This document shows, piece after piece, positions 60,034 through 63,409 of a stretch of DNA of 64,000 bases. The stretch's first letter is position 1. Every line of letters begins with the position of its first letter. The DNA is from Vulcanococcus sp. Clear-D1. Lineage in GTDB: Bacteria > Cyanobacteriota > Cyanobacteriia > PCC-6307 > Cyanobiaceae. The stretch covers positions 56,608-120,607 of the forward strand of contig NZ_JACVZV010000038.1 of assembly GCF_014654725.1 (NCBI RefSeq), written 5' to 3'. The translations under genes were made by a program, and so were the position numbers. The notes under the pieces are model-generated. The model saw nothing but the letters and a program-made list of their open reading frames with translations, ran no database searches and had not been told where the DNA came from.

Positions 60034-61368
60034 ATGGGTCTGGATCGCAGCGTGAGCTTGCTGGAGGCGAGCCGCTTCTGGTGGCAGCTGGGCTGGGTGA
60101 GTTTTGGCGGGCCCGCCGGCCAGATTGCGCTCCTGCACCGGGAGCTGGTGGAGCAGCGGCGCTGGCTGAGCGAGCGCCGCTATCTGCATGCCCTGAATTT
60201 CTGCATGTTGTTGCCCGGGCCGGAGGCCACCCAGCTGGCCACCTATCTGGGTTGGTTGATGCATGGCTGGCCCGGCGCACTGATCGCCGGCGCACTCTTC
60301 CTGTTGCCCTCCGCGCTGCTGATCAGTGCCCTGGCCTGGCTCTACGCCGTGTGGGGCAGCTGGCCGCTGCTGGCTTCAGTGTTTGCGGCACTCAAGCCGG
60401 TGGTGCTGGCGATGGTGGTGGTGGCGGCCTGGCGCCTAGCGCGGCGCACGTTGCGCACCCCCCTGCATGCACTGCTGGCAGCCGTGGCCTTTGTGCTTTT
60501 GCTGGCCTCTGCCTTGCCCTACCCCGTGCTGGTGTTGGGCGCGGCCCTGGTGGGTTGGCTTGCGGGTCGTTGGCGGCCGCGCTGGATCTTGCCTGCTGCA
60601 GCCGAGACGAGCGCTGCGCCAGCTGCCGAGGTTTCTGTCGATCTCGCTGTGGCCGGCCTGGCGCCACTGCATGGCGATCACACCCCCACCCCTGCCCATG
60701 CCCGCTTCAGCGGCCGCGGCATGTTGCTCACGCTCTTGGCTTGGGGACTGGCGACGTTTGCTCCGCTGGCGGCTTTGGTGCGGCTGGGGGGGTGGGATGG
60801 TTCGCTGGCGCTGATGGCGCGGTTCTTCAGCCAGGTGGCGCTGGTGAGCTTCGGCGGCGCCTATGCCGTGCTGCCGTATGTGGCCCAGGGAGCCGTGGAG
60901 CAGCACGGCTGGCTCTCGGCCAGTCAGATGTTGGATGGTCTGGCTCTGGGGGAAACCACGCCGGGGCCGCTGATCATGGTGCTCGCCTTCGTGGGCTTCA
61001 TGGGCGGGTGGAGCACGGGTGTGGGCGGTTGGGCGGCAGCGGCCGTCACCGTGTGGTTCACCTTTCTGCCGTCGTTCGGGTTCATCCTGGTGGGGGCGCC
61101 ACTGGTGGAGGCGAGCCGCGGCGATCAACGCTTCACGGCGCCGCTCACCGCGATCATGGCGGCACTGGTGGGCGTGATTGCCAGCCTGGCGGTGTGGTTC
61201 GTACTGCCGGTGCTGCTGCCAGCTGGCCACCTCGATGCCACGGCGGCGTTGCTGGTGCTGGCGGCGCTGTGGTTGTTGCTGCGGCAGCGCTGGGGGGTGC
61301 TGCCGCTCATCGGTTCAGCAGCCCTGTTGGGCGTGCTGCGCTTCGGCTTGGCTGAGCTTGTCCAGTAA
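60034..61368 (+). CDS. chrA: Chromate efflux transporter (CHR family)
   Basis: FWWQLGWVSFGGPAGQIALLHRELVEQRRWLSERRYLHALNFCMLLPGPEATQLATYLGW; second half VALVSFGGAYAVLPYVAQGAVEQHGWLSASQMLDGLALGETTPGPLIMVLAFVGF. Confidence 0.95.
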   Translation: MGLDRSVSLLEASRFWWQLGWVSFGGPAGQIALLHRELVEQRRWLSERRYLHALNFCMLLPGPEATQLATYLGWLMHGWPGALIAGALFLLPSALLISALAWLYAVWGSWPLLASVFAALKPVVLAMVVVAAWRLARRTLRTPLHALLAAVAFVLLLASALPYPVLVLGAALVGWLAGRWRPRWILPAAAETSAAPAAEVSVDLAVAGLAPLHGDHTPTPAHARFSGRGMLLTLLAWGLATFAPLAALVRLGGWDGSLALMARFFSQVALVSFGGAYAVLPYVAQGAVEQHGWLSASQMLDGLALGETTPGPLIMVLAFVGFMGGWSTGVGGWAAAAVTVWFTFLPSFGFILVGAPLVEASRGDQRFTAPLTAIMAALVGVIASLAVWFVLPVLLPAGHLDATAALLVLAALWLLLRQRWGVLPLIGSAALLGVLRFGLAELVQ

Positions 61369-61625: not shown

Positions 61626-62681
61626 TCAGCCTTGCCCCGGAGCTGGCTGTGCTGCCAGATCGAGGGGGAATTGGTGAGCGTTGCGCTCGTGCATGGCCTC
61701 GATGCCAAGGTTGCCGCGGTTGAGCACATCGGCCCAGGTGGGAATCACGCGACCTTGATGATCGAGCACGGCATGGTTGAAGTTGAAGCCATTGAGATTG
61801 AAGGCAAAGCTCACCACGGCTAGGGCTGAACACCAGATGCCGATCACCGGCCAGGCGGCGAGCAGGGCATGCACCCTGCGGCTGTTGTCGGTGGTGGCAT
61901 AGGGCATGATCAAGCGGCCCATGTAGGCGTGGGCAGCCACGATGTTGTAGGTGGGTTCTTTCTGGCCAAACAGATAGCCCCGGTTGATCGATTCTTCCTC
62001 GGTGGTTTCACGAATCAGGCTGCTGCTCACCAGCGAGCCATGCAGTGCCGCCAGAAATGCACCGCCGAAGCTGCCGGCTACAGCGAGCATGTGCAGCGGG
62101 TGCATCAGCACGTTGTGCTCAGCCTGCAGCACGAACATGAAATGGAAGGTGCCGGAGATGCCGAGAGGCATGCCATCGGCAAACGCTCCTTGCCCCAGGG
62201 GATACACCAACAACACGGCCATCGCTCCGGCCCAGGGGGCGGAGTAGGCCACGGCAATCCAAGGGCGCATGCCCAGCCGGTAGCTGAGTTCCCATTGGCG
62301 ACCCATCCAGGCTGTGATTCCGATCAGGAAGTGGAACACGATCAGCTGATAGGGGCCGCCGTTGTAGAGCCACTCCTCCACGCTGGAGGCTTCCCATAGG
62401 GGATAGAAGTGCAGCCCGATGGCATTCGAGCTCGGCACCACGGCCGCGCTGATCAAGTTGTTGCCCCCTAGGAGCGAACCGCTCACCGGTTCGCGGATGC
62501 CATCGACATCCACCGACGGTGCGGCCACGAAGGCCATGGCGAACACGATCGTGGCCGTGAGCAGGCAAGGAATCATCAGCACACCGAACCAACCGATGTA
62601 GATGCGGTTGCCGGTGTTGGTGATCCATGCACGGAATAGGCGCCAGGGATGACTCCTGGCCGCAGAAGAAAGGCTTGTCAT
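61626..62681 (-). CDS. psbA: Photosystem II D1 protein, divergent variant
   Basis: 351 aa: [20 protein letters not shown]...[64 protein letters not shown]...[32 protein letters not shown]...[14 protein letters not shown]. Confidence 0.97.
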
Positions 62682-62962: not shown

Positions 62963-63409
62963 ATGACCGCCGCGATCGTGATCCTGCTGGTGATCGGCAC
63001 CCTGGTGGTGGTGATCATGCCGAGCCGGGAGGAGTTCACCTGGTTTCTGCGCCTCCGCCGGCCGCGTTGGCTCAGCTTTGAGGGATGGATCCCACTGATC
63101 TGGTTGGGCATCTATGGCTGCTTCTATGCCTCGTCGCTGTTGGTGTGGAACCGGACCAGCAGTTGGGGATTGATGGTGGGCTATCTGCTGTTGCTTGTGT
63201 TGGTGCAGAGCTACACCTGGTTGATCTGCCGAACCCGTCGCCTCGCCAATGGCACAGCCGTGGGCCTGGCTGGTTGGCTCTGGGGGGTGGCGCTCACCCT
63301 GGTGGTGGCCGGTTCGTCGCAACCCGCGGCCCTGTTGTTGATTCCCTACCTGCTTTGGAGTCCGGTGGGCACGCTTGTGACCTGGCAGATGCAGCGCCTG
63401 AACCGCTGA
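62963..63409 (+). CDS. TspO/MBR family-like membrane protein
   Basis: PSREEFTWFLRLRRPRWLSFEGWIPLIWLGIYGCFYASSLLVW...LLLIPYLLWSPVGTLVTWQMQRLN; five-TM layout. Confidence 0.7.
   Translation: MTAAIVILLVIGTLVVVIMPSREEFTWFLRLRRPRWLSFEGWIPLIWLGIYGCFYASSLLVWNRTSSWGLMVGYLLLLVLVQSYTWLICRTRRLANGTAVGLAGWLWGVALTLVVAGSSQPAALLLIPYLLWSPVGTLVTWQMQRLNR

Follow-up and report, generated by a model that had tools for sequence, protein, structure and literature searches.

The stretch of Vulcanococcus sp. Clear-D1 DNA analysed here (64,000 nucleotides, hereafter the window) encodes a psbA gene whose product is a D1 protein with a complete set of water-oxidation ligands and a remodelled electron-acceptor side, and which belongs to a clade best placed within the D1' (low-oxygen type) group. 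Based on the evidence laid out below, we give a probability of about one half to the reading that this gene is a conditionally used D1'-derived isoform that would yield a PSII able to oxidise water but slow to reduce QB. The features on which the argument draws are:

61626..62681, minus strand: psbA, divergent D1 isoform of 351 aa, with an intact reading frame and a PF00124 match
62142..62180, minus strand: second-sphere donor-side segment with S169A and N181H (canonical numbering), Mn ligand D170 kept
61863..62054, minus strand: stretch of the acceptor side covering canonical residues 211-274 (positions derived from the reading frame and cross-checked with a pattern match)
61629..61652, minus strand: 8-residue C-terminal extension past A344 (AQPAPGQG), from the sequence
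62963..63409, plus strand: TspO/MBR family protein, divergent, 281 bp from psbA (PF03073, synteny)
60034..61368, plus strand: chromate transporter family protein, flanking psbA opposite the TspO gene (PF02417)

The 351-aa product matches PF00124 (Photo_RC) with E = 2.9e-83 and aligns to canonical D1 without gaps except at the ends. The alignment bore out the reading frame and the one-residue offset (canonical = local + 1) proposed in an earlier, sequence-only reading, in which the minus strand was unstated; local H91, H117, H189, H214 and H271 thus correspond to canonical H92, H118, H190, H215 and H272. The ligands listed there are all found, namely H92, H118, Y161, D170, E189, H190, H198, H215 and H272 as well as H332, E333, H337, D342 and A344 towards the C-terminus, and the set covering Mn/Ca, YZ, chlorophyll and the non-haem iron is complete. 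The C-terminal extension is shorter than the usual D1 tail and is presumably removed by CtpA, as in general D1 processing. The substitutions G80A, F158L, T286S, F124T, C125A and Y126W, together with Q130, were likewise each confirmed. Of the D1' signature set, the window D1 has A80 and L158; residue 286 is S instead of A in the window D1 and in the other clade members except the relative L007, which has A. Since most D1' proteins of the family carry W126, this residue is nothing special.

The host genome assembly (G000; 2.96 Mb in 39 contigs) contains four D1 genes besides the window gene, which is not the sole psbA and is therefore an extra isoform. Two of the four are identical G4-type copies, on contigs C3 and C6, a third ordinary D1 gene, of the Q130 type, is located on C37, and the remaining one (G000:C2:51884-52912) encodes a typical D1' with the full A80/L158/A286 set plus E130, by which the standard low-oxygen signature is already borne in this genome. 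No psbD was detected by PF00124 across the 39 contigs despite a completeness rating of 99.97%, probably reflecting collapsed repeat copies.

In a tree sampling rogue, ChlF, far-red, G4, P173M-type and D1' proteins, with the D1' rows assigned by signature and Synechocystis PsbA1 and T. elongatus PsbA2 not included, the window clade (support 100/99) is sister to the D1' of the Cyanobiaceae (98/88) and nested in the D1' group (100/96). Omission of residues 197-275 left the placement the same (97/89 and 100/96), and in the best trees the clade stands apart from the G4, rogue and ChlF proteins. In AU tests, grouping of the clade with rogue and ChlF proteins gave p = 0.14, with rogue proteins alone p = 0.13 (0.04 without the QB region) and with G4 p = 0.03 on the full alignment (0.16 once the QB region was left out); the D1' placement is the best supported one and not a certain one, as the other placements are not firmly rejected. 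The trees and the retained ligands agree with the sequence-only reading in that the protein is neither a rogue nor a ChlF D1. It is a separate isoform with a lineage of its own, in a genome that has three genes of the G4 type and one for D1', and neither outcome named in that reading as refuting it, placement inside G4 or being the only psbA, came about. The suggestion made there of a lineage not covered by the standard groups was not sustained: the clade falls inside the D1' group, next to the Cyanobiaceae D1', and is therefore a fast-evolved branch of a known group. Overall, that reading is partly supported, its observation being confirmed and its interpretation upheld in part.

With a signature pattern built on the altered QB loop (P261), matches came from 7 of 400 Cyanobiaceae genomes, each belonging to the window's own genus, a small group of freshwater picocyanobacteria, and from three contigs only among 84,980 species genomes; no match was found among viral contigs. 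A looser pattern, intended for rogue-type loops too, was escaped by most rogues owing to their insertion, and its matches, which at class level came from 3 of 388 genomes and were confined to the window's genus, are valid for insertion-free P261 loops only. Full-length relatives of the window D1 occur in G177 (95%), G134 (93%) and G064 (87%), and a second sub-lineage comprises the proteins of G092 and G009, the L036 protein being 99% identical to the G009 one; the reading frame is intact in six members of the clade. L036 (RGHP01000153.1) is a contig of a gammaproteobacterial MAG carrying this cyanobacterial psbA and looks mis-binned. A viral origin was rejected on the absence of the signature from viral contigs and the identity of cyanophage D1 (at most about 73%), and a plasmid origin because the best plasmid match, a D1' from Aulosira, has its pocket in the normal form. 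A seeming third independent case of T264/T265, L094 (G404:C41:177800-179100), was also discarded, its loop being an insertion-like stretch; in this G4-type psbA the QB loop is swapped for GRLVGRTNEVILGTTANSRT, possibly a mobile-element scar or an assembly fault. The open papers searched gave no account of the clade or of a natural D1 of the oxygen type whose QB pocket is remodelled, an absence that is weak evidence, as the search covered open papers only.

The extent of the remodelling was assessed against 96 standard D1 proteins, in which 209 positions are at least 95% conserved. The window D1 is altered at 27 of these 209 positions, and the changes concentrate in residues 197-275 (18/62 vs 9/147 elsewhere, P = 2e-5), as they do in sub-clade 1 (17/62 vs 5/147, P = 1e-6) and sub-clade 2 (14/62 vs 5/147, P = 4e-5). 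The emphasis of the sequence-only reading on the PheoD1 environment missed this larger signal, the clustering of changes at the QB/bicarbonate site. The acceptor-side segment of the window D1 carries F211L, M214L, E242K, E244P, G253A, F255M, Q261P, S264T, F265T, N266D, L271V, F273A and F274L, with V205 and G201, like M214, also among the changed sites.

Could this be a regular D1' of the low-oxygen type in which drift altered the pocket but not its function? Its position in the D1' group and the retention of H215, Y246, H252, H272 and S268 are consistent with this, but the explanation is unlikely, given that the 96 standard D1 proteins show little or no variation at positions such as 211, 214, 244, 255, 261, 264, 265 and 271, that the two sub-lineages have 12 changed positions in common and that a typical D1' is already present in the genome. 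Furthermore, members on the window's side of the clade have evolved under strong purifying selection: pairwise dN/dS values in sub-clade 1 are 0.06-0.12 (dS 0.3-0.9), compared with 0.01-0.11 in the other D1 pairs examined, evidencing that the protein is maintained.

For the same reason it is very improbable that the gene is a decaying duplicate heading for loss, these values being far from neutral and the frame being intact in six members. Losses do occur: G165 (L148:2654-2851, C2) keeps only a 3' psbA remnant of about 47 recognisable residues, which adjoins the chromate transporter gene, and the psbA of G263 lacks the first ~120 residues, although a draft-assembly error is possible in the latter. 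As these two relatives have lost or truncated it, the gene is dispensable.

Position 264 is T or A in every member of the clade, with T265 in the window D1 and S or L265 in its relatives; the second sub-lineage has A at 264 and S or L at 265. S264 is the classical herbicide-resistance site, and selection of the isoform for insensitivity to PSII inhibitors, natural or man-made, that bind the QB pocket, through S264T or S264A, F255M and others, would be compatible with this pattern and with the many more changes that line the pocket. This explanation is nevertheless quite improbable, as F265T raised atrazine sensitivity in Chlamydomonas (PMC11645544), inhibitor escape leaves the changes in the bicarbonate loop and at V205, G201 and M214 unaccounted for, and no resistance or detoxification genes were recognised nearby.

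Of the 27 changed conserved positions, 13 are also altered in rogue D1 (expected 4.8, P = 8e-5), including 211, 214, 244, 255, 261, 264, 265, 266 and 271. An origin of the QB loop through recombination with rogue psbA was rejected, as residues 248-271 show an identity of 0.66 to D1' and 0.41 to rogue D1. Most sampled rogue D1 proteins (L124-L131) have one additional residue in the QB loop, immediately following H252, and the window clade is devoid of it; these identities and this insertion make convergence with rogue D1 the simplest reading.

On the donor side, S167A, S169A and N181H lie in its vicinity in the window D1, sites 169 and 181 being close to the Mn cluster or chloride. S169A occurs in most of sub-clade 1 and in some rogues; N181H is found in the clade in the window D1 only and is common to nearly all rogues. 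In sub-lineage 2, the Mn ligand D170 is replaced by E in G009 and L036. These substitutions are modest signs that constraint may be loosening on the donor side too, with the ligands of the window D1 intact. It can be asked whether the protein is a convergent rogue-like D1 without useful O2 evolution (a placeholder or sentinel), whose Mn ligands persist by recent ancestry. The excess of positions in common with rogues, the residues at 181 and 169 and the D170E of two sub-lineage 2 members point in this direction, as does the description of Group 2 D1 for use when water oxidation is unfavoured (PMC5061849). Conversely, each Mn ligand is retained in all window-side members, the partial ones being consistent with this, dN/dS is low and the clade lacks the rogue-type insertion, so that the explanation appears rather unlikely.

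The surroundings of the gene are conserved in part. The order photolyase, AbrB-like gene, FAD protein, MBL-fold protein, desaturase, chromate transporter and psbA is collinear in most of sub-clade 1; the chromate transporter neighbour is kept in G134, G064, G251 and G165, and in G177 no chromate transporter gene was found between the desaturase and psbA, the best match being on another contig. TspO adjoins psbA also in G177, G134 and G064 (four genomes with the window) and is absent from the G165 locus, which is the same syntenic site in a lineage that lost psbA. Nothing in the neighbourhood of the window psbA indicates the condition of its use; upstream of it no promoter-like match was found and the alignment was uninformative, and no FaRLiP genes lie beside it, its neighbours being the chromate transporter and TspO genes. 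The psbA genes of sub-lineage 2 are at other loci, and the G009 copy lies in a low-GC island (0.51 vs about 0.65), which suggests lateral transfer in this sub-lineage. The sub-lineage 2 loci L051:7500-10500 and L050:7500-12000 lie in stretches of about 50% GC.

What the remodelled pocket may do can be approached through mutants. In Chlamydomonas, the replacements F265T and F265S bring the QA-QB equilibrium constant near one, leaving almost no driving force for QA-to-QB transfer, and cause slower QA reoxidation, a higher miss factor and light-hungry O2 evolution, while autotrophic growth persists (PMC11645544). E244, Y246 and S264 make up a network of hydrogen bonds that reaches the bicarbonate bound to the non-haem iron, and E244 makes a salt bridge to D2-K264, with E244A shifting Em(QA) (PMC9490181). 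The window D1 combines E244P, S264T and F265T, and as single-residue mutants in other organisms behave in this way, we infer that QB reduction in this protein would be slow or weakly driven. The effects of single mutations need not sum, and the changes at S264, F265, E244 and the other sites may compensate one another, in which case the pocket could work normally; for the sub-lineage with A264 and S or L265, the F265 mutants would give partial guidance only.

The reading of a conditionally used isoform with slow QB reduction can be formulated as follows. The gene would have arisen inside the D1' lineage of the Cyanobiaceae, within or near one genus, and diverged rapidly at the electron-acceptor side, the water-oxidation ligands staying constrained. 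Expressed in place of the ordinary D1 under special conditions, its product would assemble a PSII that most likely still oxidises water, in which the altered QB pocket and bicarbonate/proton network would make QA-to-QB transfer slow or deprive it of driving force, and the centre would idle or recombine at low light, functioning only if strongly driven. More tentatively, the clade might represent a natural, selected form of throttled PSII that still evolves O2 but has lost its QA-to-QB driving force, derived from D1', converged with rogue D1 and possibly an intermediate to non-water-oxidising D1. The QB-pocket residues S264, F265, M214, F255 and E244 hardly vary in oxygen-evolving D1 and are known mainly from mutants; a natural set of D1 proteins altered jointly at the majority of these sites and present beside ordinary D1 would show the natural retuning range of the PSII acceptor side, whether the QA-QB driving force is a regulatory variable and how rogue D1 may arise.

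Among the known D1 types, G3 (the microaerobic D1) and G4 are regarded as standard forms and G0-G2 as atypical (PMC6492235), and psbA genes that are normally silent are well known to be induced under microoxic conditions (PMC5295598). The window D1 resembles D1' (G3 in Cardona's scheme) in A80, L158, L186, A289, V290 and all ligands, and is 76% identical to the D1' of its own genome, from which it differs by about 90 substitutions; it departs from D1' in having S286 instead of A, Q130 instead of E, and T124/A125, and its altered QB and bicarbonate residues are changed in no sampled D1'. With rogue D1 (G2, sentinel) it has L211, L214, P261 and H181 in common, as well as S265 in relatives, but it keeps E189, E333, D342 and A344, which are lost in rogues, and in addition to the missing H252 insertion there is no kinship by descent in the best trees. 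The Chlamydomonas D1-F265T and F265S mutants are changed at the same residue (T in the window gene, S in relatives) (PMC11645544); these mutants are engineered, whereas the window D1 is natural and has many further pocket changes. Far-red D1 and ChlF (FaRLiP) are special-condition forms of D1 paralogous to the window D1, itself a probable form of this sort; far-red D1 groups with G4 and ChlF is an early branch without the ligands.
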